A stretch of DNA of 64,000 nucleotides from positions 2,914,001-2,978,000 of the forward strand of contig NZ_CP087997.1 in assembly GCF_021044565.1 (NCBI RefSeq), read 5' to 3'. Origin of the DNA: Subtercola endophyticus (GTDB lineage Bacteria > Actinomycetota > Actinomycetes > Actinomycetales > Microbacteriaceae). Positions 34,604 to 50,672 of the stretch are shown here, one piece after another (position 1 is the stretch's first letter; every line of letters starts with the position of its first letter). The position numbers and the translations under genes were made by a program. The notes beneath the pieces were generated by a model that was given only the letters and a program-made list of their open reading frames with translations, was not told where the DNA came from and made no database searches.

Positions 34604-35200
34604 ATGGGCATCTTTTCACCAGGCTTCGTCGGCCGTCGGCGCGACGCGAACCCGCTGCTGCCGCCCGGGCAGTACGAGGTCTCGAACTTTCCGGTGCTGT
34701 CTGCCGGGCCGACACCGAAGATCAACCTCGACGACTGGGCGTTCTCGATCAGGGCCGGCAACGGCGACCTGAAAGCGTGGAACTGGCAGACGCTCATGGC
34801 GCAGCCCATCGAGCAGTTCACCGTCGACCTGCACTGCGTCACGCGCTGGTCGCAGTTCGGAATGGGCTGGCGCGGCGTCTCCCTCGACGTGCTGCTCGAC
34901 GGTGTCGACACCTCGACGACTCCGTACGCGATGGCGGGCTGCTATGGCGGATACACGACCAACGTGCGCATGTCAGACCTGCTCGGCGGAAAAGCCTGGG
35001 TCGCCTTCGAGTTCGACGGCAAGCCGCTCGCCCCCGAGCACGGCGGCCCAGCGCGGCTGCTCATCCCGCACCTCTACCTCTGGAAGAGCGCCAAGTGGCT
35101 CAACAGCCTGACCCTGATGGATCACCACGAGCTCGGCTTCTGGGAGATGTACGGTTACAACGACATCGGCGATCCCTGGAAAGAAGAAAGATACAGTTGA
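34604..35200 (+). CDS. Molybdopterin-dependent sulfite oxidase-like oxidoreductase
   Basis: 198 residues of the YedY/sulfite oxidase fold. The Mo-ligating cysteine is in DLHCVTRWSQFG, and CYGGYTTN and GGPARLLIPHLYLWKSAKW follow as in short MsrP-like proteins. No Tat or Sec signal is visible, so it appears cytoplasmic, unlike YedY. ATG 34604 has AAAGGG nine bases upstream. The gene 13 bases downstream encodes a ferredoxin-reductase-like protein, its probable electron partner. The substrate is unknown. Confidence 0.86.
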   Translation: MGIFSPGFVGRRRDANPLLPPGQYEVSNFPVLSAGPTPKINLDDWAFSIRAGNGDLKAWNWQTLMAQPIEQFTVDLHCVTRWSQFGMGWRGVSLDVLLDGVDTSTTPYAMAGCYGGYTTNVRMSDLLGGKAWVAFEFDGKPLAPEHGGPARLLIPHLYLWKSAKWLNSLTLMDHHELGFWEMYGYNDIGDPWKEERYS

Positions 35201-35213
35201 GCAGGGTCGCTTA

Positions 35214-35948
35214 GTGGTCGACTGGCACATGGCGCGCGTCGCCGAGATTCACGAAGAGACCGCCACAGCGCGTTCGCTGCGACTGAAGATCGACGAGTGG
35301 CCCGGGCAGCTTTCGGGGCAGCACCTCGACATCCGCGTGACCGCACCCGATGGGTACCAGGCGTCGCGTGAGTACTCGATCGCCTCGGGGGCGTCGACAG
35401 ATGGGGATGCCCTGGTCGAGGTCTCGGTCGAAGAACTGCCCGATGGCGAGCTCTCGCCGTACCTGGTGCGCGGAGTCGAGGTGGGCGACATGCTCGAGGT
35501 GCGAGGTCCCGTCGGCGGATACTTCGTGTGGCGACCGGAGCAACCCGAACCCGTGCAACTCATCGCCGGCGGGTCGGGCGTCGTGCCGCTGATGTCGATG
35601 TTGCGCACCCATGCTGCTGCCGGGCATCCGACGCCCATGCGGCTGCTCTACTCGGTGCGCGCGCCACAGTTCGTGTTCTACATGGACGAGTTCATGCAGC
35701 TTGCAGAGCAGTCGAACGACAGCGTCATGCTCGACTATGCCTACACTCGCGAGGCGCCCGAGGGCTGGGCTCGCTCGGTCGGCAGGCTCACCCGCGACGA
35801 GGTCATCAAACTGACCCTGCCGCCGGAGCAGAACCCGATCACCTACATCTGCGGCCCGAACAGTTTTGTCGAGAACATCGCGATGTGGATGGTCGACCTC
35901 GGCCACCCCGCCGAACGGGTGCGTACCGAGCGTTTCGGGGGCGCCTAG
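35214..35948 (+). CDS. FAD/NAD(P)-binding ferredoxin reductase-like protein
   Basis: 244 residues with the FNR fold: FAD motif SREYSIAS near residue 60, GPVGGYFVW, NAD(P) motif LIAGGSGVVPLMSML and the C-terminal YICGPNSFVENI. No [2Fe-2S] domain is fused. It probably passes electrons between NAD(P)H and the sulfite-oxidase-like protein encoded just upstream. It uses a GTG start, with only a weak upstream GCAGGG; translational coupling is likely. Confidence 0.87.
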   Translation: MVDWHMARVAEIHEETATARSLRLKIDEWPGQLSGQHLDIRVTAPDGYQASREYSIASGASTDGDALVEVSVEELPDGELSPYLVRGVEVGDMLEVRGPVGGYFVWRPEQPEPVQLIAGGSGVVPLMSMLRTHAAAGHPTPMRLLYSVRAPQFVFYMDEFMQLAEQSNDSVMLDYAYTREAPEGWARSVGRLTRDEVIKLTLPPEQNPITYICGPNSFVENIAMWMVDLGHPAERVRTERFGGA

Positions 35949-39611: not shown

Positions 39612-41276
39612 TCAGCGCAGTATTTTACCCGGGTTCAGGTTGTTGCCGGGGTCGACCGCCGTGAACATGCCCCGCACCAGGTCGGCGCCGGCCGGGGAGA
39701 TGTCTTGCTCGGTCCACTGCGAGTGCTCGACTCCCACGCTGTGGTGGTGCGAGAGCGTCGCGCCCGAGTCGATGAAGGCCTGCTGGATGGCCGACTTCAC
39801 CACGTCGTACTGCGCCAACGGATCGACGCCATCGTGCGTGAACGCGAACGTGAAGTAGAGGCACGCGCCCGAGTGCATCGAGTGCGAGAGGTGGCACATG
39901 ATCCAGCCGTCGACACCGATCTCGCCGTAGGCCTTGTTGGCGGCGGCGAACACGTTGTCGTACAGCGGCTTGAGCTTCGACCAGGGCGCAGCTGTCTCTG
40001 ACACGTCTGCCGCGGCACCGCGGTCGAGCAGGAAGTCGCGGAGGTACGGCGTGTCGAACTTCTTCTGGTCGTACAGCGCGCCCGGGCCCTTGCCCAGGGT
40101 AATGGCGCCGTGCTTCTTCATGACGTCGCCGACGACCGACTTCTGGTGGGCAACGTTCGCTGCCGTGCCCTCGTAGCCGATGAACGAGAGGCAGACCTCG
40201 TCGAGGTTCCAGCCGCGACGCTGCAGAAACGCGAACAGCGCCTTCTGCACCTGGCCGCTGATGCCGTGCGATGCCTTCGAGGTGGAGAACGAGAAGGCGG
40301 TCTCACGGGCATCCGACACCCTGGTGATCGACGGGGCGGCGTCGCTCTTGTTGATGTCGTGCATCGCGGCGAGCCCCGCGTCCCAGTCGCGGAACAAATA
40401 CCCGATGACCTCGCGCTTGGCGGGCAGCTTGTGCACCTGAACCGTGGCCTCGGTGATGACGCCGAGGCGGCCCTCGCTGCCGAGAATGGCCTCGCGCACG
40501 CTCGGCCCGGTGGCCGACGACGGAATCGGCCGAACGACGAGCAGCTTGCCCGGCTGAACCACGCGCAGGCCCTTGGTGATCTCGGCGATGTCGCCGTACT
40601 TGTCGCTCTGCATACCCGACGAGCGGGTGGCGATCCACCCGCCGAGCGTGGAGTAGGTGAAGCTGTCTGGCTGGTGCCCCATGGTCCAGCCGCGTGCGTT
40701 CAGCTGCTCTTCCATGTCGGGGCCGAGCACGCCGGCCTGAATCACCGCAAGACCCGAGTACTCGTCGATGTCGAGCACGCGCGACATGCGGCCCATGTCG
40801 AGCGAGATGACGGGGCGCGTCTCGGTGGCGATCGGCTCGAGCGAACCGACGATGTTGCTGCCCCCGCCGAACGGAATGATGACCGCGTCGCTGGCCACAG
40901 CGAGGTCGACGATGCGCTGCGTCGCGCTCTCGTCTGCCGGGTAGACCACCACGTCGGGGATGCGCGGCAGCACGCTGGCGCGCAGGCGAATCAGGTCGCG
41001 GATGCTCTTTCCGTACGTGTGCACGACGCGCTCTTCGTCGTCTTTCGTGGCGTATTCGGGCCCGACGATGAGCGTCAGCGCATCGAACAGCTCGTCAGGA
41101 GCCTGGCTGGCAGGAACCTCGAGCTCGTCGAACGAAATCGGCGGAACCGGCTCTTTCCACACGTCGATTCCGACGGCATTCACGACGAACGGCGCGAACC
41201 CGGGCTTGTCTTCGTGGTGAAAACCCACACCTTCGACGCCCCAGCCCCACCATTTCATGTGCTTGACGTCGGTCAT
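39612..41276 (-). CDS. Alkyl-dihydroxyacetonephosphate synthase (AGPS)-like flavoenzyme
   Basis: 554 residues matching AGPS from end to end. It has the N-terminal WWGWG, the FAD PP-loop IIPFGGGSNIVGS, the GHQPDSFTYSTLGGWIATRSSG core, EGRLGVITEA, GACLYFTFAF (Tyr474, catalytic Tyr position) and SHHHSVG (His510-512, the triple His of AGPS). AGPS exchanges the acyl group of acyl-DHAP for a fatty alcohol, forming the ether bond. A glycolate or lactate oxidase is less likely given the HHH motif. ATG 41276 overlaps the acyltransferase stop by four bases; it is the last gene of a three-gene operon. Confidence 0.82.
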   Translation of the reverse strand: MTDVKHMKWWGWGVEGVGFHHEDKPGFAPFVVNAVGIDVWKEPVPPISFDELEVPASQAPDELFDALTLIVGPEYATKDDEERVVHTYGKSIRDLIRLRASVLPRIPDVVVYPADESATQRIVDLAVASDAVIIPFGGGSNIVGSLEPIATETRPVISLDMGRMSRVLDIDEYSGLAVIQAGVLGPDMEEQLNARGWTMGHQPDSFTYSTLGGWIATRSSGMQSDKYGDIAEITKGLRVVQPGKLLVVRPIPSSATGPSVREAILGSEGRLGVITEATVQVHKLPAKREVIGYLFRDWDAGLAAMHDINKSDAAPSITRVSDARETAFSFSTSKASHGISGQVQKALFAFLQRRGWNLDEVCLSFIGYEGTAANVAHQKSVVGDVMKKHGAITLGKGPGALYDQKKFDTPYLRDFLLDRGAAADVSETAAPWSKLKPLYDNVFAAANKAYGEIGVDGWIMCHLSHSMHSGACLYFTFAFTHDGVDPLAQYDVVKSAIQQAFIDSGATLSHHHSVGVEHSQWTEQDISPAGADLVRGMFTAVDPGNNLNPGKILR

Positions 41277-42112
41277 GCGGCTCCTTGCTTCGGGTTGTCG
41301 TTGCTGTTGTCGTTCTCGGCGCCGTCTGACTGCGCCACACTCGGATGATCGTGCACATTGGTGCCGGCATTGGCAGCTTGAAGCGCCTTCTGGCCGGCGT
41401 GCAGCTCGCGCACCGTCTTCTCGATGCGCTTGTTGAACTGTTCGACGGTCTCACCCTCGCCCGCGACGAGCGGGTCGCCGAAGGCCACGTACACGGGCGG
41501 ACGACCGGGCACGGGCCAGTTGCGGCCGCGCGGCATGGCTTCGGTCGCACCGACGAGTGCCATCGGGATGCACGGGATGCCCGCCTTCATGCAGAGCGCA
41601 GCGGCGCCCGCCTTGAAGGGAGCGATCGTGCCGTCTTTCGACCGGGTTCCTTCGGGAAAGACCAGCAGCGGAACGCCACGGCTGAGGAGCTTGCCCGTGA
41701 ACCCGTTGGACTTCGCGTTGGCGCTGCGATCGACCGGAAAGGCGTTGAAGAAGAGGGCGGTGAGGCCTTTGCGCCACCAGACGTCGAAGAAGTAGTCCGC
41801 GGCGGCCGCGGCGGCCAGGTAGCGCGAAAGCCTGCTGGGCATCGAGCCCAGAATGAGCGGCGCGTCGAGGTGGCTGGAGTGGTTCGCGACCACGATGTAG
41901 GCGCCGTGCACGTCTTTGACCTTCTCGCGCCCGGTGATGTTGACCTGCACCAACGACCAGATGGTCGGTTTCAGCAGCAGGCGCTGCGCCACGAACCGAG
42001 CACCCGCTTGGGCCTTGGACGTATAACGGTTGCCGAACTCCACCTGCCCAGCGTACTCAATAGGCGCGGGGAACCGAAACGCGCTCAGGTCGCGCGCAGA
42101 AATGCGCTCCAC
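41273..42112 (-). CDS. PlsC-type lysophospholipid/glycerolipid acyltransferase
   Basis: 279 residues with the acyltransferase motifs NHSSHLD (HX4D catalytic), NAFPVDRS, FPEGTRSKDG and CIPMALVGA. It has a hydrophobic N-proximal segment and a disordered acidic tail. It could acylate DHAP or 1-alkyl-glycerol-3-phosphate. The GTG start at 42112 is preceded by an unclear promoter or leader. It lies between the SDR and AGPS-like genes, overlapping the latter by four bases. Confidence 0.88.
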   Translation of the reverse strand: MERISARDLSAFRFPAPIEYAGQVEFGNRYTSKAQAGARFVAQRLLLKPTIWSLVQVNITGREKVKDVHGAYIVVANHSSHLDAPLILGSMPSRLSRYLAAAAAADYFFDVWWRKGLTALFFNAFPVDRSANAKSNGFTGKLLSRGVPLLVFPEGTRSKDGTIAPFKAGAAALCMKAGIPCIPMALVGATEAMPRGRNWPVPGRPPVYVAFGDPLVAGEGETVEQFNKRIEKTVRELHAGQKALQAANAGTNVHDHPSVAQSDGAENDNSNDNPKQGAA

Positions 42113-42134
42113 GCTACGACCGGTACAATTTGTG

Positions 42135-42905
42135 TCAGTGAGCCCTGCTTGACGAGATGCGCCCCGAGATCGACCGGATGGTGCTGCGCGGCAGGTGCCG
42201 AGTGAAGAACGTCAAGAATTTGAATCGTGCAGAAGGGATCGAGATGACTTTGCCCTTCGCCACATCGGCCAGGCAGTCGGCGACGAGCTCGTCGACGTCG
42301 ATCCAGAGAAATTTCGGAATCGACGACTCTCGTATGCCTGCACGTTCATGGAACTCGGTGTGCACCCAGCCCGGCTGCAGCGCCGTGACTTGCACGCCGC
42401 TTCCTTTCAACTCGACGGCGAGGCCCTCGGTATACGAGGTCACCCACGCTTTGATGGCCGAGTAGCTGCCCATCGTGATGTTTCCCGCCACACTCGAGAT
42501 GTTGATGATGGTGCCCGTGCCGCGTGAACGCATGGCGCGCCCCGCCGCTGCCCCCAGCAGCAGCACCGCGCGACCCATGACGTTGAGCGCCCGCTCGTGC
42601 GGAGTGGTGTCTTCGGCCAGAAGCGACGTATGGATGCCGAAACCCGCGTTGTTGACCAGAATGCCGATCGGGTTCTCAGCACGTTCGAGCAGCGCGGCGA
42701 CCCGCAGCACGTCGTCACGATTCTCCATGTCGGCCGAAACCGTCTCGACTTCGACCCCGAAGGCGTGGCGCAGTTGCGCCGCCGTCTCGGCCAGCCGGCC
42801 CTCGTCGCGCGCCACGAGAACGAGGTTGTCACCTCGCTCTGCGAAGGCGCGTGCGAACGCGGCACCGATACCCGATGTGCCACCTGTGACTAAAGCCGTA
42901 ACCAT
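42135..42905 (-). CDS. Short-chain dehydrogenase, candidate acyl/alkyl-DHAP reductase
   Basis: 256-residue classical SDR: TGGTSGIG cofactor loop, NNAGFG, active Ser in INISSVAGN, and YSAIKAW. A basic hydrophobic C-terminal stretch (KFLTFFTRHLPRSTIR) suggests membrane association, as in the DHRS7B group that reduces acyl/alkyl-DHAP. That role fits the neighbouring AGPS-like and PlsC genes but is inferred. The ATG at 42905 has TATCTT seven bases upstream; a TTG three codons earlier is rejected. It is the first gene of the minus-strand operon. Confidence 0.85.
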   Translation of the reverse strand: MVTALVTGGTSGIGAAFARAFAERGDNLVLVARDEGRLAETAAQLRHAFGVEVETVSADMENRDDVLRVAALLERAENPIGILVNNAGFGIHTSLLAEDTTPHERALNVMGRAVLLLGAAAGRAMRSRGTGTIINISSVAGNITMGSYSAIKAWVTSYTEGLAVELKGSGVQVTALQPGWVHTEFHERAGIRESSIPKFLWIDVDELVADCLADVAKGKVISIPSARFKFLTFFTRHLPRSTIRSISGRISSSRAH

Positions 42906-42912
42906 GGCAACC

Positions 42913-42918
42913 AAGATA
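42913..42918 (-). promoter_or_regulatory. -10 box of leaderless SDR-PlsC-AGPS operon promoter
   Basis: TATCTT on the minus strand, seven bases before ATG 42905, in the 102-base divergent gap between the two lipid operons. Confidence 0.45.
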
Positions 42919-43007
42919 CGTCACCGCAGCGAACGACTACTGTGCAACTGGAGAAATCCTGCCGCACCACACGTCTCACCTCTTCCCACTCGCCCTGGAG
43001 GCACCCG

Positions 43008-43880
43008 ATGACCGATCCGCACAAGGCCGAACGAGAGCTGATCGGCGACTTCGACATTCGCGCCTACACGCGCACGGCGGCCGGCAGCCACGCAGACTCC
43101 CTTCCGCTCGAGGCCTTCGCCGAGCATCCACTCGCCGCGAAAACGTTGCGGGCGATCGCGTACCTGCGCGACCTCGAGCGCTTCACCATGCACCACATGC
43201 GCGATGTGCTGGTCACTCCGTCGCACAAGGATGCCCGGCTCACCGCTTTTCTGGCGACCTGGGCCTTCGAGAAGTACTGGATCGCCGACGCTTTCGACCG
43301 CATTCTGGCGGCGCACAGCACTTTTGTGCCCGTCAAGAACCGCGCGCGCCTGAGAATCGTGCGGTTCGGGCGCGAATTCGTCGACCGCGTGTCACCCATC
43401 TTCACGGCCATTCGAGCGAACCTGATCGGCGAAGACTTCATCTCGATTCACGTCACGCGGGGTTTCATCGATGAACTCGTCAGCCGCGCGACCTACAGCG
43501 AGATCGTGCGAAGAGACCCGAACACGGCACTGAAAGACGTTCTGACGGCCTTTCAGCAGCTGCGCAACCGTCATTTGCAGTTTTTCGAAGGCGAAACTCT
43601 GCGCCGACTGGAAGAATCGACTTCGGCTCGAAAGCTCACCCACTCATCGTTGAAGCGTTCGTGGGCTCCGACCGGCACGAACGAACAAGCAACCCAGGAG
43701 ACCCGATTCATGATGACCTATCTGTTCGGCGACGCCGACGGGCGCGCTGACATCGCGGCCATCGACCGGGTCATCGACACCCTGCCGGGGCAGCGCGGGC
43801 TGGCTGTGATGAGCAAAGCGGCTCGACGTTTCGGTGTGAAGGGTCTCGGCAACTCCGCCGGCACGAGGGCTACCGCGTGA
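43008..43880 (+). CDS. Ferritin-like paralogue lacking diiron ligands
   Basis: 290 residues clearly paralogous to the diiron protein at 48714-49508: both have MRD(V/M)LVTPSH(K/R)D and a matching helix pattern. Of the six expected iron ligands, ExxH of helix 2 has become K..I (KYWI for EFWH) and the Glu of the last helix is Arg (RNRH for EARH); three remain. It is therefore probably a non-catalytic partner or scaffold. ATG 43008 has GGAGG six bases upstream. It opens the plus-strand lipid operon and overlaps the reductase gene by four bases. Confidence 0.72.
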   Translation: MTDPHKAERELIGDFDIRAYTRTAAGSHADSLPLEAFAEHPLAAKTLRAIAYLRDLERFTMHHMRDVLVTPSHKDARLTAFLATWAFEKYWIADAFDRILAAHSTFVPVKNRARLRIVRFGREFVDRVSPIFTAIRANLIGEDFISIHVTRGFIDELVSRATYSEIVRRDPNTALKDVLTAFQQLRNRHLQFFEGETLRRLEESTSARKLTHSSLKRSWAPTGTNEQATQETRFMMTYLFGDADGRADIAAIDRVIDTLPGQRGLAVMSKAARRFGVKGLGNSAGTRATA

Positions 43881-46291
43881 GCCCGCGCACTCCCGCGTTC
43901 AGGCCCCTCGAGGGCCAGCACATCATGCTCACCGGAGCCACGGGCTTCGTCGGGCAGGCCATTCTCGAGAAGCTGCTCGCCGACTACCCGACCACCCGGG
44001 TGACGTTGCTCATCCGGCCGAAGGGCTCGCTCACCGGCCAGGCCCGGCTGAAGAGTCTGCTGCGCAAGCCGGTGTTCTCGAAGTGGCGCGAGCGTGTCGG
44101 CCAAGACGAGGTCGACCGTGCGGCCGTCGAGCGCATCACCGTGGTCGAATCGACGATGGGCGATGTGGCCTCACTGCCGTCGGATCTCGACGTGCTGATC
44201 CACAGCGCCTCGACGGTGTCGTTCGACCCGCCCATCGACGAGGCGTTCAAGACCAACGTCGGCGGAGCAGTCGGCCTCTACGAGGCACTGCTGCGCACCG
44301 GATCCGACCCGCACGTGGTGCACGTCTCGACGGCATACGTCGGCGGAATCCGCAAGGGCACCACGGTTGAGGCGTCGCTGAAGCACACGGTCGACTGGCG
44401 CGCAGAAATGGCCGCCGCACTCGCCGCTCGTACGGAGGTCGAGGCGGCGTCGCGCCGCCCCGAAACCCTGCGCAAGCTCATCGCCGAGGCCCGCACGGTA
44501 TCGGGCAAGGTCGGCCCGCAAGCCGTTGCCGCTGCGGCAGAAGAAGGCCGCATCGCCTGGGTGACGGCGCGCCTTGTCGACTACGGCCGCGTGCGTGCGC
44601 AGAGCCTGGGCTGGGCCGACGTCTACGCGCTCACCAAGTCGATGAGCGAACGTGTCGCCGAAGAGCTCTGGTTCGGCAACGGTCACCGCCTCTCGGTGGT
44701 GCGCCCCGCCATCATCGAGAGCGCACTGCGTCACCCGTACCCGGGCTGGATCGACGGCTTCAAGGTCGCCGACCCGCTGATCATCGCCTACGGTCGCGGG
44801 CTGCTGCCCGAGTTTCCGGGCCTGCCCGACAGCGTGCTCGACATCATTCCCGTCGACATCGTGGTCAACGCCACCCTCGCCGTGGCCGCGAACCCGGCGC
44901 CGCGCGACGAACCCAAGTACTTTCACCTGAGTTCGGGCGGCCGCAATCCGCTCACCTTCCGCGACATCTACGAGAACGTGCTCACGTACTTTCGGGCGAA
45001 TCCGATTCCGGATGACCAGCGGGGCCACATCCGCGCGCCACTCTGGGCGTTCCCGGGTGCCCGCGCCATCGCTCGCAGCCTGAAATTCGGCGAGCGCACC
45101 AACAAGTACGCGCAGCGCGCCCTGCTGCGCCTGCCGTCGAGCAGCGTCACGCGTAACTGGCAACGCCAGGTCTCGTCGCGGCAGACCGACCTCGAACTGC
45201 TGCGGGCCTATTCCGACCTGTACCAGAACTACACCCAGACCGAGATCATCTACGACGACAGCAAGACGGCGGAGCTGAACGACACGCTGCCCGAGGCGCA
45301 GCTCGAGAAGTTCGGCTTCGACGCCACCGACATCGACTGGGACCACTACCTGCAGCAGGTGCACTTTCCGGCGATCACGACGCTCATGCGCACGTTCAGC
45401 TCCCGGCCGCGAGCGAAGGTGCAGAAGGAGAAGCCGCTGCCGCACACCGAGAACGCGGCGGCATTCTTCGACCTCGAAGGCACGGTTCTCGCGACCAACA
45501 TCATCGAGCAGTACCTCTGGGTGCGATTGGCGAGCCTCGACCGTTCGAAATGGCCGCGCGAGCTCACCAACCTGTTCAGTTCGCTGCCGCGCTACATCGC
45601 TGCCGATCGGCGCGATCGCGGCGAGTTCCTCCGTACATTCCTCAGACGGTATGAAGGGGTCGACGAAGCTGCGTTGCGCTCGCTGATCCACGATTCCATC
45701 GGCGATGTGCTGCTGCAGCGCATCCGCCCCGAAGCTGTGCGCCAGATTCGCAAGCATCGCGAGGCCGGTCATCGCACGATTCTCGTCACCGGTGCCGTCG
45801 ATGTGTTCACCGAGCCGTTCGCCTCCCTCTTCGACGAGGTGGTCGCCAGTTCGATGCATGCCAAAGACGGCATATGGACGGGTTACCTCTCCAAGCCGCC
45901 GCTCGTCGACGAGGCGCGCGCGGCCTGGCTGCGCCTGTATGCCGAACGCGAGGGCATCGACCTCGCCAAGTCGTACGCGTACGGAGACTCGCACGCCGAC
46001 CGCGCCTGGCTCGAACTCGTCGGTCACCCGCAAGCCGTGAATCCCGATGCCGCGCTCTACCAGCACGCCACGGTCAAGCACTGGCGCATCCACCAGTGGA
46101 ACGACCAGGCCCGTTCGCGGCTCAACACCATCGACGAGCTCGTGCGCGGTGACATGGCGAGCATCACGCACGCCCCGGCGCACACCGGGGCCGACGGAGC
46201 GCCGTCGCCGACCCTCACCGCGGCACTCGCCGCCCCCACCGACCTCGCCGCCGAACCGGCCACCGACAGCCCGAAAGAGACCCACGCATGA
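43877..46291 (+). CDS. Fatty acyl reductase-like SDR fused to a HAD-IB phosphatase
   Basis: 804 residues. Residues 1 to about 380 form a male-sterility/FAR-type extended SDR: LTGATGFVGQ (18-27), LIHSAS, VSTAYVGG and catalytic YALTK. This is followed by a linker and, from about 530, a HAD domain with nucleophile FFDLEGT, TGAVDVF and YGDSHAD. The SDR half would reduce acyl-CoA or acyl-ACP to aldehyde or alcohol; the HAD half may remove a phosphate from a lipid intermediate. Fatty alcohol is what AGPS needs. The GTG start and the ATGA at its end overlap both neighbours. Confidence 0.84.
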   Translation: MSPRTPAFRPLEGQHIMLTGATGFVGQAILEKLLADYPTTRVTLLIRPKGSLTGQARLKSLLRKPVFSKWRERVGQDEVDRAAVERITVVESTMGDVASLPSDLDVLIHSASTVSFDPPIDEAFKTNVGGAVGLYEALLRTGSDPHVVHVSTAYVGGIRKGTTVEASLKHTVDWRAEMAAALAARTEVEAASRRPETLRKLIAEARTVSGKVGPQAVAAAAEEGRIAWVTARLVDYGRVRAQSLGWADVYALTKSMSERVAEELWFGNGHRLSVVRPAIIESALRHPYPGWIDGFKVADPLIIAYGRGLLPEFPGLPDSVLDIIPVDIVVNATLAVAANPAPRDEPKYFHLSSGGRNPLTFRDIYENVLTYFRANPIPDDQRGHIRAPLWAFPGARAIARSLKFGERTNKYAQRALLRLPSSSVTRNWQRQVSSRQTDLELLRAYSDLYQNYTQTEIIYDDSKTAELNDTLPEAQLEKFGFDATDIDWDHYLQQVHFPAITTLMRTFSSRPRAKVQKEKPLPHTENAAAFFDLEGTVLATNIIEQYLWVRLASLDRSKWPRELTNLFSSLPRYIAADRRDRGEFLRTFLRRYEGVDEAALRSLIHDSIGDVLLQRIRPEAVRQIRKHREAGHRTILVTGAVDVFTEPFASLFDEVVASSMHAKDGIWTGYLSKPPLVDEARAAWLRLYAEREGIDLAKSYAYGDSHADRAWLELVGHPQAVNPDAALYQHATVKHWRIHQWNDQARSRLNTIDELVRGDMASITHAPAHTGADGAPSPTLTAALAAPTDLAAEPATDSPKETHA

Positions 46292-47823
46292 GCAGACCAG
46301 GCTTCGTTCTGAGCGTCGACGCCCAGACCCCGCCCCTCGTCGTATTCCAGGGCGAAAAAGTGCTGCTGCAGCGGCTGCCGAGCGGGTCGAGTGTGCTCTA
46401 CCCGCCCGAGGCGCTGCCGGGCATCCAGCAGCTCGACGCCGAGATCAGCGAAGCACTCGCCGACCCGGTCGAGAGTGAACCACTCTCCGCGCTGCTGAAG
46501 CGCGGGTCGCGCGTGACGATCGTGTTCGACGACCTCTCGCAGCCCATCACCTCTCGAACGGCTCCGGACGTTCGAGCGCGCGTCATCGAACGAGTACTCG
46601 AGCTGGCCGCCGCCGCCGGGGTCGACGATGTCGAACTGATCGCCGCCACGGGCCTGCGCCGCCGGCTCACGCCGTACGACCTGCAGAAGGTGCTCGGCGA
46701 GCGGGTCTTCGCCTCGTTCTTTCCCGAGCAACTGCACAGCCACGACGCCGAAGACGGCAATGTGGTCACCGTCGGCACGGCCGCCGACGGAACGCCGATC
46801 GAGATCAACGCCCGCGTCGTGTCGAGCGATCTGGTCATCTCGGTGCGCCTCGCCACCGCCGTGGCGAACGAGGGGGCGCCTGCCGTCGCCACCAAGCTCG
46901 CCAGTGCCCGCACGGCTCGGGCGCTCAACTCGCCACTCGCCGGGCCAGAAGCAGCGGCATCCTACGAATCGCTCGTCGACACGATCGGCGAGACCGCGAC
47001 CGTGTTCACCATCGACGTGACGCTCACCCCCGAGCCCACCGGGCCCGCCACGGCGTTTCTCAGCAAGCGCGAACGCGAGTGGAGCATCACCGACCGGGCG
47101 CTCTCGGCGGGCATCCAGCTCGCGACGAAGGTGCTGCCGAGCCGGGCGCGCGTCGGCCTCACCCAGGTGTCTGGTGTCGGGTTCGGCGTCACATCGGTGC
47201 TGGCCGGCAAGCCGAGCGCCGTGCATCCGCTCACCGAGAGCTTCTTGGCGCAGCAGCAGGTCGGCGAGGTCGACTCGGCCGCCGATGTGGCCATCTTCGG
47301 CATTCCGAATCCCACCGGCGTGGGCGCTACGCTCAACCCAGTGACGGCGGCGAGCCTGGGGCTCGGCCAGATCTTCAACGGGTCGACCGCGGCCCCCGTG
47401 GTGCGGCCGGGTGGCACGGCGATCTTCTACCACCCGCTGACGCCGTGGTTCCACCCGCTGTACAACCCGGCCTACGTCGACTTCTTCGCCGAGGCGCTGA
47501 GTGCGACGACCGACCCCGCGCAACTCTCGGCCGAGTTCGAGACGCGGTTCGCGACCGACCCGTGGTACCGGCACCTCTACCAGACGAGCTACGCGCACCA
47601 CGCGCTGCATCCGTTCCACGCCTGGTACTCGGCGGCACCGGCCATCGACTACCTCGGCGAGATCATCTTCGTCGGCGGCAATCTCGAGTCCACGCGGCGC
47701 CTGGGCTTCAAGGCCGCGACGACGCTCAACGATGCGCTCGAGATGGCGTCGGATTCGGTCGGGCTCGAGCCGTCGATCACGTACGTGCACGGCGCGCCGG
47801 TGAGCATCTCCGAGGTGAGCTGA
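46288..47823 (+). CDS. LarA (lactate racemase)-like protein
   Basis: 511 residues. The N-terminal domain shows the LarA/DUF2088 hallmark VTIVFDDLSQPI near residue 78, then ELIAATGLRR, HSHDAEDG (a His in the catalytic-His region) and DGTPIEINARV. The second half is longer than in LarA and His/Tyr-rich (FYHPLTPWFHPLY, SYAHHALHPFHAWY). The lysine/His motif that anchors the Ni-pincer cofactor in true LarA is not evident, so racemase activity is uncertain. It is coupled to both neighbours (ATGA and TGATG). Its role in lipid synthesis is unknown. Confidence 0.68.
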   Translation: MSRPGFVLSVDAQTPPLVVFQGEKVLLQRLPSGSSVLYPPEALPGIQQLDAEISEALADPVESEPLSALLKRGSRVTIVFDDLSQPITSRTAPDVRARVIERVLELAAAAGVDDVELIAATGLRRRLTPYDLQKVLGERVFASFFPEQLHSHDAEDGNVVTVGTAADGTPIEINARVVSSDLVISVRLATAVANEGAPAVATKLASARTARALNSPLAGPEAAASYESLVDTIGETATVFTIDVTLTPEPTGPATAFLSKREREWSITDRALSAGIQLATKVLPSRARVGLTQVSGVGFGVTSVLAGKPSAVHPLTESFLAQQQVGEVDSAADVAIFGIPNPTGVGATLNPVTAASLGLGQIFNGSTAAPVVRPGGTAIFYHPLTPWFHPLYNPAYVDFFAEALSATTDPAQLSAEFETRFATDPWYRHLYQTSYAHHALHPFHAWYSAAPAIDYLGEIIFVGGNLESTRRLGFKAATTLNDALEMASDSVGLEPSITYVHGAPVSISEVS

Positions 47824-48545
47824 TGGGCGTTCCGTCGCGGGCGACCGTGCGGCTGCTGGTGAATCCGGTCGTGCGCGGGCGGGAGTACCTCAGCGAGCTT
47901 CCGGGTCCGTTCATCTTCGTAGCGAATCATCCGAGCGAACTGGATGCTCCGCTGCTCGCTCTCGTGCTCGCGCGTATCGCGCCGCGGCTGGTGGCGGTGG
48001 GCGCTGCTCCACAGACCGGAGCGCGCGGAGCTTTCGAGAGCGCACTCGGCCTGCGCTCCGCTGGGCGGCTGGCCGGGCTACTGAACCGCGGAGTCAGCGT
48101 GCTGCTCTTTCCGGAGAACGACCGTGCCGACGACGGAACGCTGACACCGTTCAATCTCGGGGCTGCTCGGCTGGGCATCCAGACCGGCGTGCCGATCGTG
48201 CCGGTGGCGCTCTCAGGCACCTACCGGGCCCTTCCGCCGTGGCGACACCTGCCCGAAACCTCGCGGCCTCGGGTGAACGTGGTATTCGGGCGGCCAATCC
48301 GGCCCGACGCCGGCTCCGAACCCTCTGCAGTGAACGACGACATCGTGACGGCGATCACACTCGGAATGGCCGAAGTGAAAAACGGCTGGTACGGGGCGTT
48401 GCGAGCCGAAGCCGAAGGAACGTTGGTGGCGGCCGGCAGTGCAAGCGATGAGGGTGGCGCCGAGACTGGCACTGCGCGCTGGCGCCGCATCTGGAAAGCG
48501 ACCGCTCCCGATGAGGTGCAACGCCGAACGGTGTGGGTGAAGTAA
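47823..48545 (+). CDS. PlsC-type acyltransferase
   Basis: 240 residues with NHPSELDAP (HX4D), LLFPENDRADDG (FPEG-like, with Gly replaced by Asn) and VPIVPVALSGTY. It is distinct from the copy at 41273-42112. It could acylate the second position of an alkyl or acyl glycerol phosphate. ATG 47823 shares its A with the stop of the LarA-like gene (TGATG). It is the last gene of the coupled run; 168 bases follow before the diiron gene. Confidence 0.85.
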   Translation: MGVPSRATVRLLVNPVVRGREYLSELPGPFIFVANHPSELDAPLLALVLARIAPRLVAVGAAPQTGARGAFESALGLRSAGRLAGLLNRGVSVLLFPENDRADDGTLTPFNLGAARLGIQTGVPIVPVALSGTYRALPPWRHLPETSRPRVNVVFGRPIRPDAGSEPSAVNDDIVTAITLGMAEVKNGWYGALRAEAEGTLVAAGSASDEGGAETGTARWRRIWKATAPDEVQRRTVWVK

Positions 48546-48713
48546 GAGCGCCGAGTCAACTGACAGCCCTTGAATCGCACATGTTTTCATATCGCGCAAA
48601 TTTCCAGCTAGACGCAGCAGAATAGTTACTAACCCGTAGACAGCACGGGTGAGAAAACGACAGAAACGGGAGGATGAGGCCGACACGCGAACTGCGTCAC
48701 GCCTCCAGTGCTC

Positions 48714-49508
48714 ATGGCCTTCGATATCGACAGCTACACCAAGACGAGCAAGAACGTGGCGTGGGAAGACCTCGACTTCGAAGACTTTCGCACGAATCCG
48801 TTGCCGCCCGACACTCTGCGGGTCATCCGCTACATGGCCGACGTCGAGTACCACACGGTCTGCTACATGCGCGACATGCTCGTCACGCCTTCGCACCGCG
48901 ACCAAGACGTGACCGGGTTCATGACCATGTGGAACCGCGAGGAGTTCTGGCACGGCGAGGCCCTGGCCGACGTGCTGCGCATGCACGACATCACTCTCGA
49001 GTTCGACGAACTCAAGTCGAAGCGCCTCAAGCTCGGCTGGAAGGACCGCATCGACCCGGTCAAGCAGTCGGTGCTGTCGAACCTCGTCGGCAAAGACTTC
49101 ATCGGCGTGCACATGATCTGGGGTGCAGCCAACGAGTGGTCGGCCGTTGCCGCCTACAAGCGCCTGGCCGAGATCGAGGGAAACCCGGTGCTCGCAGAGC
49201 TGCTCAAGCGCATCGCGATGCAAGAGGCCCGGCACGTGGCGTTCTACGCCACCCAGGCCCGTGAGCGCCTCGGCAAGAGCGTGGTTGCACAGAAGTTCGC
49301 TCGGTTCGCGCTCGGCAAGTTCTGGGGCCCGGTCGGCTCGACCATCATGGACAAGACCGAGGTCAAACACGTGATGGGCCACATCTTCGGCGGCCCCGAG
49401 GGGCGCAAGGCCATCAACGCCATCGACGCCCACATCGCCAAGATGCCGGGCCTCGGCGGCCTCACGATCGTGGCCGACTCGCTCGACGCGAACGGCATCG
49501 CGGCGTAA
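48714..49508 (+). CDS. Ferritin-like diiron protein, candidate lipid desaturase/oxygenase
   Basis: 264 residues of a four-helix diiron fold with all six canonical ligands in order: Glu45 (DVEYH), Glu77 and His80 (EEFWH), Glu141 (ANEWS), Glu171 and His174 (QEARH). This is the pattern of acyl-ACP desaturases and related O2-activating enzymes, not of iron-storage ferritin. The ATG at 48714 lacks a good ribosome binding site; a GTG two codons upstream is possible, and GGGAGG at 48668 belongs to another frame. It is followed three bases after its stop by the DAG-kinase-like gene. Confidence 0.78.
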   Translation: MAFDIDSYTKTSKNVAWEDLDFEDFRTNPLPPDTLRVIRYMADVEYHTVCYMRDMLVTPSHRDQDVTGFMTMWNREEFWHGEALADVLRMHDITLEFDELKSKRLKLGWKDRIDPVKQSVLSNLVGKDFIGVHMIWGAANEWSAVAAYKRLAEIEGNPVLAELLKRIAMQEARHVAFYATQARERLGKSVVAQKFARFALGKFWGPVGSTIMDKTEVKHVMGHIFGGPEGRKAINAIDAHIAKMPGLGGLTIVADSLDANGIAA

Positions 49509-49511
49509 CTG

Positions 49512-50672
49512 ATGGAGCGGGGGTCTGGCGGTCGGGGTGCTGGCGGTCGGGGTGCTGACCGTCTTCCGTTTGCGGCGATCGTCTACAACCCGACCAAGGT
49601 CGACCTGCGCCGGCTGCGTCCGCTCGTCGAGAAGGTGGAGGCCGAGCGCGGCTGGGCACCCAGTCTGTGGGCCGAGACCACCGTCGCCGACCCTGGCGAG
49701 GCAGCCTCGGCACAACTGCTCGCGCACGTGCCGACACCGAGCGTGCTGATCGCCGTCGGGGGCGACGGAACCGTCAGCGCGGTCGCCCAGGCGCTGGTGT
49801 CGCGAACTTCGCAGAGCTCGCAACGGCTTCAGGGCGCAGGCGCTTCCGTCTCGCGCGACGGTGCGGTTGAGCATCCGGCCCCCGCTTTGCCAGCAGGTGA
49901 GCAGGTGACTGCCCCCGACACTCGTGAACTCTCGGTGGGGGTGCCGCTGGGCATCCTGCCGGCCGGAACCACCAACTTGTTCGCGCGGGCTCTCGGGCTT
50001 CCGTTGCGCAGCCACAAGAAAGCCCTGCTCGCCGCGTTCAGCGACACGGTTCGCACCGTCGACGTGGGGCGAGTGGATGCCCGGCTCGAGTCGGGCGCAA
50101 CGCTGAGCCGCGCGTTCATGGTCATGGCAGGTATGGGCGTCGACGCCCAGATGGTGGTCAACACCTCGGCGCGGGGCAAGAGCGCGCTCGGCTGGACAGG
50201 GTACATCGCCGCCATTGTGGGCTCGTTCGTGACGAATCGCCGCTTCGACCTCTCGTACACGCTCGACGGAGACGCTCTCGCTGCCGCCCCGGCGCACACG
50301 ATCGTGGTGGGCAATGCGGGGGTGCTGCCGGCGGGCATCCGCATGATTCCGGGGGCGCGCATCGACGACGGGCTGCTCGATGTGGTCGTACTGCGCCCGA
50401 GCGGATTCGCGCAGTGGACCCACGCGCTCGGCTGGTTCGTGCGCACCAACACTCCCGCGCTTCCACGCCGGGCCGCGGGCCGGGCAGCGGCCGACGGCTC
50501 TGCGCCCGTGGTGTCGGCCGCGGTGACACACTCGCGCGCGACCACCGTGTCGTGGTCTGCCGGCCCCGCCCAAGACTTCGAGATCGACGGCGAGCACCTC
50601 GGCCGCGTCACCTCTGCCGACGCCCACATCGAGCCCGCCGCCCTGCGCGTGCGCGGCAGCGTCGCGCCGTGA
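49512..50672 (+). CDS. Diacylglycerol kinase/sphingosine kinase-like protein
   Basis: 386 residues of the DAGK catalytic family: VYNPTK at the N-terminus, IAVGGDGTVSAVAQ (ATP-binding GGDGT), LGILPAGTTNLFAR and DDGLLDVVVLRP. A 50-residue low-complexity stretch interrupts the first domain. It would phosphorylate a diacyl- or alkyl-acyl-glycerol or a similar lipid alcohol. ATG 49512 lies three bases after the diiron gene stop and begins with a Gly-Arg-rich segment; a later start is possible. It closes the lipid cluster. Confidence 0.87.
   Translation: MERGSGGRGAGGRGADRLPFAAIVYNPTKVDLRRLRPLVEKVEAERGWAPSLWAETTVADPGEAASAQLLAHVPTPSVLIAVGGDGTVSAVAQALVSRTSQSSQRLQGAGASVSRDGAVEHPAPALPAGEQVTAPDTRELSVGVPLGILPAGTTNLFARALGLPLRSHKKALLAAFSDTVRTVDVGRVDARLESGATLSRAFMVMAGMGVDAQMVVNTSARGKSALGWTGYIAAIVGSFVTNRRFDLSYTLDGDALAAAPAHTIVVGNAGVLPAGIRMIPGARIDDGLLDVVVLRPSGFAQWTHALGWFVRTNTPALPRRAAGRAAADGSAPVVSAAVTHSRATTVSWSAGPAQDFEIDGEHLGRVTSADAHIEPAALRVRGSVAP

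Follow-up and report, generated by a model that had tools for sequence, protein, structure and literature searches.

How an aerobic actinobacterium might assemble ether lipids, and which enzyme could introduce the vinyl-ether bond of a plasmalogen when the known enzymes for that step are not recognized in its genome, is the question raised by a divergent gene cluster of Subtercola endophyticus. The cluster lies in a 64,000-nucleotide window (C1:2914001-2978000 of a one-contig genome of 4.32 Mb). An intergenic stretch, read directly (42915-43007, no strand), separates a minus-strand operon, SDR-PlsC1-AGPS, from a plus-strand operon, psiFe-FARHAD-LarA-like-PlsC2-Fe2-kinase, where SDR stands for a short-chain dehydrogenase/reductase and FARHAD for a fatty acyl-CoA reductase fused to a HAD domain. 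An initial annotation had interpreted the cluster as an ether-lipid locus, and our analysis supports this. Pfam and NCBIfam searches confirm the gene positions and assignments, with family models matching the FAR-type reductase, the SDR, both PlsC acyltransferases, the HAD domain, the diacylglycerol (DAG)-kinase-like enzyme and the diiron protein, Fe2. All genes named at that stage are present, but two had been missed, those for psiFe (43008-43880, plus strand), a diiron paralogue without metal ligands, and for the LarA-like protein (46288-47823, plus strand). The locus is real and conserved and probably serves an aerobic ether-lipid pathway that makes plasmalogens; for the ether-lipid assignment by itself our confidence is high.

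To place the window among its relatives, genome contigs were scanned with a profile of 25 aligned Fe2 homologues, which gave 241 relatives; locus counts below refer to the best 80, read with flanks of up to 10 kb on contigs that are short in some cases. Matches to the other genes were taken from tblastn at E<=1e-100 for FARHAD and AGPS, E<=1e-30 for PlsC1 and E<=1e-40 for SDR. FARHAD is found in 60 of these loci, AGPS in 57, PlsC1 in 60 (one being the PlsC of L031) and SDR in 59.

The AGPS-like protein (39612-41276, minus strand) is the clearest pointer to ether lipids. A phmmer search against the PDB matches it to 2uuu (E 2.4e-115) and 4bby (5.5e-84), respectively a Dictyostelium-type and a peroxisomal AGPS. 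The glycolate oxidase 9qgz follows at 1.8e-18, and this ranking rules out a glycolate or lactate oxidase identity. Grouping with those oxidases had been named beforehand as a refutation, and the protein instead sides with the solved AGPS structures. The catalytic Tyr and HHH motif noticed initially are present: Arg413, Tyr474 and His510-512, catalytic positions in AGPS, are kept in 56 of the 57 loci, the best alignment piece in the other not covering them. The protein is thus a predicted alkyl-dihydroxyacetone phosphate (DHAP) synthase orthologue, which would exchange the acyl group of acyl-DHAP for a fatty alcohol.

The neighbouring genes encode candidates for the accompanying reactions. PlsC1 (41273-42112, minus strand; PF01553, 1.2e-22), the core acyltransferase, keeps His78 and Asp83 of its HX4D motif in 60/60 matches and is a candidate DHAP or alkyl-glycerol-3-phosphate (alkyl-G3P) acyltransferase. 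The SDR (42135-42914, minus strand, start possibly 42905; adh_short, 5.2e-39) keeps Tyr151 and Lys155 in 59/59 matches; its best NCBIfam model is a mycolate reductase (1.1e-47, under the cut-off), and it is a candidate acyl/alkyl-DHAP reductase. FARHAD (43877-46291, plus strand) combines a fatty acyl-CoA reductase at residues ~11-500 (PF07993, 1.2e-43; 1.8e-44 to the fatty acyl-CoA reductase 7eoz in the PDB) with a HAD-IB domain at ~528-725 (PF12710, 1.8e-34; TIGR01490 above its cut-off). Tyr250 and Lys254 of the reductase and the HAD nucleophile Asp532 are invariant in all 60 matches. At residue 534, the position of the second acid of the HAD domain and usually an Asp, 57 of the 60 have Glu and the other 3 have His. 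Because this acid differs while the nucleophile is kept, the phosphatase activity may be altered; the domain might dephosphorylate a lipid phosphate.

Fe2 (48714-49508, plus strand) is a soluble diiron protein, identical in sequence (100%) to that of a Subtercola metagenome-assembled genome (MAG; L001) and 97% identical to that of S. lobariae. It scores 18.5 bits against PF03405 (FA_desaturase_2), below the gathering cut-off of 22.7, and this family is matched at E<=0.01 by 25/25 Fe2 homologues. Six diiron ligands are present together with, in the structure model, an acyl-ACP (acyl carrier protein) desaturase fold. Plant acyl-ACP desaturases top the VIA rows for the models of both Fe2 and psiFe, in the latter case tied with others within 1 Z; Foldseek 'pdb' E-values are weak (one match <=0.001), and the fold call rests on VIA, which is blind to families that Foldseek missed. 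Compared with plant stearoyl-ACP desaturase and mycobacterial DesA2, to which it is 14-19% identical in the VIA rows, Fe2 is shorter, sits with ether-lipid genes and has a ligand-less partner paralogue. That partner, psiFe, is 32% identical to Fe2 and lacks the iron ligands, with lysines in place of metal-site glutamates; its open reading frame (ORF) extends upstream to a GTG at 42942. It is a candidate non-catalytic partner subunit of Fe2 and, being systematically present next to lipid genes, clearly exemplifies a conserved pseudoenzyme. An active α-subunit paired with a metal-less β-subunit is also the arrangement of bacterial multicomponent monooxygenases, but the window locus contains no regulatory or reductase genes of that kind, and the Fe2-psiFe complex is putative.

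The gene set had been proposed for a conservation check across Microbacteriaceae, and it proves strongly co-conserved, both in the 80 loci and in a survey of 249 genomes of the family. The usual order, SDR-PlsC1-AGPS in one direction and psiFe-FARHAD-Fe2 in the other, recurs in 9 of 15 further loci; in two of the remaining six the pair lies ~7 kb from the rest, and in four only the pair is seen. psiFe is also present in the Agreia loci. In the survey, 69 genomes have both an Fe2-family protein and FARHAD (including G137, scored positive although its Fe2-query match is the psiFe copy only), 7 have Fe2 only, one 85%-complete genome has FARHAD only, and 172 have neither. Of the 70 genomes with FARHAD, 69 have an AGPS orthologue, and the rest of the 249 have none; the AGPS count was brought from 74 to 69 by excluding AGPS-like matches of 33-38% identity in G041, G087, G088, G166 and G239. 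By genus the table reads 27/2/1/55 (both, Fe2 only, FARHAD only, neither; Fisher p ~1e-18, ignoring phylogeny). All five other surveyed genomes of the host's genus code have Fe2, AGPS and FARHAD.

Do the known routes to plasmalogens account for the host? PF10520 (Lipid_desat), the CarF/PEDS1 family, has no match in Fe2, none anywhere in the host genome and none in the 249 Microbacteriaceae genomes, leaving no CarF-family protein found elsewhere in the host. The search is able to detect the family, because the same profile, run separately, matches in 12 of 296 Actinomycetota; three CarF-family loci (L081-L083, ~3.5 kb each) are too short to show linkage to AGPS. PlsA, in which DUF2229 and HGD-D are joined in one large protein of several domains, was likewise sought by its diagnostic domain: DUF2229 (PF09989) is not found in the host genome by a search that matched 4/14 controls. 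HGD-D occurs in the host as two separate single-domain proteins of 462 and 408 aa beside CoA-metabolism-like genes. PlsA is therefore rejected, since DUF2229 is lacking and the HGD-D pair resembles a separate, CoA-linked two-subunit dehydratase. The pair itself (G000:C1:3060726-3063186; L086:6703-9352) is a tandem of 2-hydroxyacyl-CoA-dehydratase-type proteins, odd for an aerobe.

Published pathways frame the comparison; the articles are cited here from excerpts of their text. The bacterial plasmalogen genes named in one review are plsA/plsR (PMC9702350), and a second review names CarF for myxobacteria (PMC9131029). With the Myxococcus xanthus and animal pathway (AGPS, FAR1, GNPAT, a reductase and CarF/PEDS1; PMC9131029), the window shares AGPS, FAR, a PlsC/GNPAT-like enzyme, an SDR and an aerobic host, whereas it has a soluble diiron pair and no PF10520 protein was found, and the fusion partner of its FAR is HAD, not an acyltransferase (AT) or acyl-CoA synthetase (ACS) domain. 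The myxococcal elb operon (ElbD, FAR-ACS-ACP-AT; ElbB, HAD; PMC9131029) has FAR-like, HAD and acyltransferase functions in common with the window, but here FAR and HAD form one protein without ACS or ACP and adjoin AGPS, while in M. xanthus elb and the AGPS gene are in separate operons according to the same excerpts. The anaerobic PlsA/PlsR (and Ger) reductive pathway leads to the same product class, vinyl or alkyl ethers; in contrast, the host lacks DUF2229 and has HGD-D only as separate proteins.

The lipids reported for carrier genera are consistent with such a pathway. The excerpts of PMC5945732 and PMC7472656 trace dimethyl acetals (DMAs) in aerobic Microbacteriaceae to Mannisto et al. 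2000. In the table of PMC5945732, three of whose four Subtercola columns are quoted from earlier work, iso- and anteiso-DMAs sum to ~21-29% of the total in S. vilae, S. frigoramans, S. boreus and S. lobariae. The Subtercola DMAs mentioned in the initial annotation are therefore real, and the producer S. vilae DB165 has its own copy of the locus (L004). The same excerpt gives at most 4% DMAs for Agreia and describes them as absent from Frondihabitans, where 14:0 2-OH is a major acid. Core-bearing loci are found in Subtercola (L001-L008), Agreia (L060, L063, L068, L069), Frigoribacterium (L074, L076, L089) and Glaciihabitans tibetensis (L040), and Frondihabitans has the full core as well (L088; L087 belongs to the same genus code).

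The 2-hydroxy acid may itself bear on the question. In Kineococcus, a MIDI peak named 'C14:0 2OH' was identified as anteiso-C15:0 DMA by gas chromatography-mass spectrometry (PMC7472656). A MIDI study lists 2OH-C14:0 at 10.4% in S. boreus, 15.6% in S. vilae, 9.9% in S. frigoramans and 3.9% in S. lobariae, and neither 'DMA' nor 'dimethyl' occurs in the excerpt (PMC9287328). For Frigoribacterium faeni, 'C14:0 2 OH' is given as 17.0%, with 4.2% for G. tibetensis (PMC7033078), while F. faeni and F. adelgis are elsewhere credited with a15:0 aldehyde/DMA (PMC12823222). Some of the 'C14:0 2-OH' tabulated for aerobic Microbacteriaceae could be anteiso-C15:0 DMA under a wrong name.

We infer the following series of reactions, its order modelled on the animal pathway as outlined in the available part of PMC9131029. 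PlsC1 would acylate DHAP and FARHAD would convert acyl-CoA to a branched fatty alcohol, which AGPS would exchange for the acyl group to give alkyl-DHAP. The SDR would then reduce this to alkyl-G3P, and a PlsC, either PlsC1 or the host's general enzyme, would add the sn-2 acyl chain. Finally, Fe2 with its iron-less partner psiFe would take the hydrogens from C1' and C2' of the alkyl chain in a reaction that consumes O2 and draws electrons from an unlinked donor, and the resulting vinyl ether would yield DMAs on acid methanolysis. Three points assign Fe2 to this step: among the core proteins it is the one resembling an O2 enzyme, its fold is that of a desaturase, and CarF-family proteins were not found. 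The initial annotation saw in the diiron protein a candidate new vinyl-ether desaturase; that suggestion is reasonable, and fold, ligand conservation and co-occurrence now give it firmer ground. It stays a candidate, and for Fe2 as a delta-1' desaturase we put the chances at about even. The statement as a whole, an aerobic AGPS-based plasmalogen pathway with Fe2 (and psiFe) forming the vinyl ether, is likewise evenly poised in our judgement.

Several observations weigh against this pathway. A single membrane FA_desaturase (PF00487) in the host could in principle perform the vinyl step, and the co-occurrence statistics ignore phylogeny. Seven of the 249 genomes, two of them of a genus taken as Humibacter, have Fe2 without FARHAD or AGPS. 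Haloactinopolyspora-type loci have FARHAD and Fe2 without AGPS, SDR or psiFe, and the Jiangella loci examined contain no psiFe. AGPS and FARHAD were also sought in 24 whole genomes, picked mainly for an Fe2 lying alone, and orthologues of both are absent from two Leifsonia and five Agromyces genomes that carry Fe2 and psiFe. These seven are among ten of the 24 without an AGPS orthologue, the others being Haloactinopolyspora, Actinopolymorpha (a 37% match only) and one MAG; G021, with a 53-residue AGPS piece at 62% and weak matches, was kept out of the ten.

The phenotype is uneven too. In the proposed check of the gene set against reported DMAs, the compounds are on record for Subtercola, for Agreia and, within Frigoribacterium, for F. 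faeni and F. adelgis, while other reports fit less well. Two other Frigoribacterium species are given without a DMA peak in the excerpt of PMC12823222, S. endophyticus is reported without 2OH-C14:0 in that of PMC9287328, and Lacisediminihabitans profunda, from a genus whose core is seen in L021 and L024, shows only traces in that of PMC7033078. The accessible part of the report on Salinibacterium metalliresistens names no such major acid. Both 14:0 2-OH and a15:0 DMA are listed for F. adelgis (PMC12823222) and in the S. lobariae column of PMC5945732; the two labels are therefore not simply interchangeable. The phenotype reports come from strains other than that of the window.

The strongest alternative makes use of the unlinked desaturase. 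Here the locus would produce saturated alkyl ethers, the vinyl bond would come from the PF00487 desaturase or another unlinked enzyme, and Fe2/psiFe would perform some other oxidation, for example hydroxylation or desaturation of the chain. We regard this as unlikely, though it has to be taken seriously. The DMAs and acids of Subtercola in PMC5945732 are nearly all saturated and branched, leaving a chain desaturase without a visible product, an argument qualified by a later MIDI study with much 18:1 in some of the same species (PMC9287328, from its available text). Moreover, the locus contains Fe2 and no membrane desaturase, and Fe2 tracks FARHAD across genera (27/2/1/55).

Fe2 and psiFe could instead be a general lipid or fatty-acid oxidase linked to the other genes by chance, with no ether-lipid role. 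This would suit the stand-alone Fe2 and psiFe of one clade and the unlinked Fe2 of Jiangella. In Leifsonia, Agromyces and Glaciibacter, psiFe lies directly 5' of Fe2 with no other core gene nearby (for Glaciibacter, as judged from the locus only); with others, these genera make up the loci in which the pair occurs without AGPS or FARHAD (L026, L036, L041, L050, L056, L072, L077, L079, L093, L094, L096 and L097). In the Fe2 tree, however, the eight Leifsonia, Agromyces and Glaciibacter rows form one group (100 by the SH-like approximate likelihood-ratio test, SH-aLRT) inside the locus-bearing Microbacteriaceae (99 SH-aLRT), and this nesting suggests that the pair without the other genes is a derived state. 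In seven Jiangella genomes AGPS and FARHAD are retained with Fe2 elsewhere, so that the genes co-occur without linkage, and in genera g8 and g16, where some genomes have the set and others lack it, neither Fe2 nor FARHAD occurs without the other. Chance linkage is accordingly improbable in our view. Equally improbable is a scheme in which the DMAs derive from fatty aldehydes freed or stored by the FAR domain, with the AGPS locus making minor alkyl lipids and Fe2 acting on aldehydes by deformylation or oxidation.

A second locus type is represented by Haloactinopolyspora alba (L103:145-9338), where Fe2 and the rest lie at the ends of two contigs, and by MAG DX1.bin79 (L031:825-10795). It comprises LarC, LarE, FARHAD, LarA, PlsC and Fe2; its FARHAD is 66% identical to that of the window, and its LarA belongs to the LarAH14/15/16 family with motifs intact. 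Speculatively, an enzyme dependent on the nickel-pincer nucleotide (NPN) cofactor might here replace AGPS and the reductase through transient oxidation at glycerol C2.

The window's own LarA-like protein is different. A match to it occurs, among the 80 loci, in L001-L009 (Subtercola and Labedella) and L031. In the window and L001-L009 the HRR motif has become RRR, GGPK is of the EGAP type and the HHH stretch is replaced, with no internal stops; these changes remove the catalytic His, the pincer-Lys region and the His-rich stretch of LarA. It scores 501 bits against NF052592, whose curated cut-off is 740, and LarC (PF01969) is not found in the host genome by a search that matched 6/14 controls; with these and the replaced residues it falls outside the NPN-dependent family (LarAH14/15/16). 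An active racemase is thus unlikely, and the protein appears to be a conserved pseudoenzyme of Subtercola and Labedella, without NPN-cofactor and catalytic residues. PlsC2 (47823-48545, plus strand; PF01553, 2e-13 on the containing ORF, start from a TGATG overlap) is a second PlsC-type acyltransferase, and the last gene encodes a YegS/DAG-kinase-like lipid kinase (49512-50672, plus strand; PF00781, 4e-16; PF19279, 5e-15), matched directly 3' of Fe2 only in L001-L009. Together with the LarA-like protein, both are Subtercola/Labedella additions outside the core. The second PlsC and the kinase, initially counted as pathway members, are present in the window but are not core across the 80 loci.

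Translational coupling, claimed initially for both operons, applies to the four of seven within-operon junctions at which stop and start overlap, by 4 nt at PlsC1/AGPS, psiFe/FARHAD and FARHAD/LarA and by 1 nt at LarA/PlsC2. The other three are gapped, by 22 nt (SDR/PlsC1), 3 nt (Fe2/kinase) and 168 nt (PlsC2/Fe2), and because of the last gap Fe2 may have its own promoter. No Rfam family matches the window at its gathering threshold. About 4 kb from the locus, a molybdopterin oxidoreductase gene is followed by an FAD/NAD reductase gene (34604-35948), with no obvious link; the reductase-like gene (35214-35948) was set aside as an electron donor, as it follows the molybdopterin oxidoreductase gene at that distance.

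Searches of open-access full texts, judged mostly from the listings of the hits, turned up no paper that connects a ferritin-like protein with plasmalogens or that deals with this locus, and 'plasmalogen', 'ether lipid' and 'desaturase' do not occur in the S. vilae genome study (PMC6518244). The locus is thus a candidate genetic explanation for the DMAs of Microbacteriaceae, which are otherwise without one in the literature excerpts examined. It points to a gene pair for the desaturation step that is missing, and it predicts the genera in which plasmalogens are made. More tentatively, at somewhat less than an even chance, Actinobacteria may possess a second O2-dependent vinyl-ether route, unrelated to CarF/PEDS1 and PlsA, in which a soluble Fe2 of acyl-ACP-desaturase descent forms a heteromer with its iron-less paralogue; it would be spread through aerobic Microbacteriaceae and relatives, its product partly mislabelled as 2-hydroxytetradecanoic acid. 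If Fe2 is indeed the desaturase, vinyl-ether formation would have arisen independently on a soluble scaffold, offering a comparison for human PEDS1.

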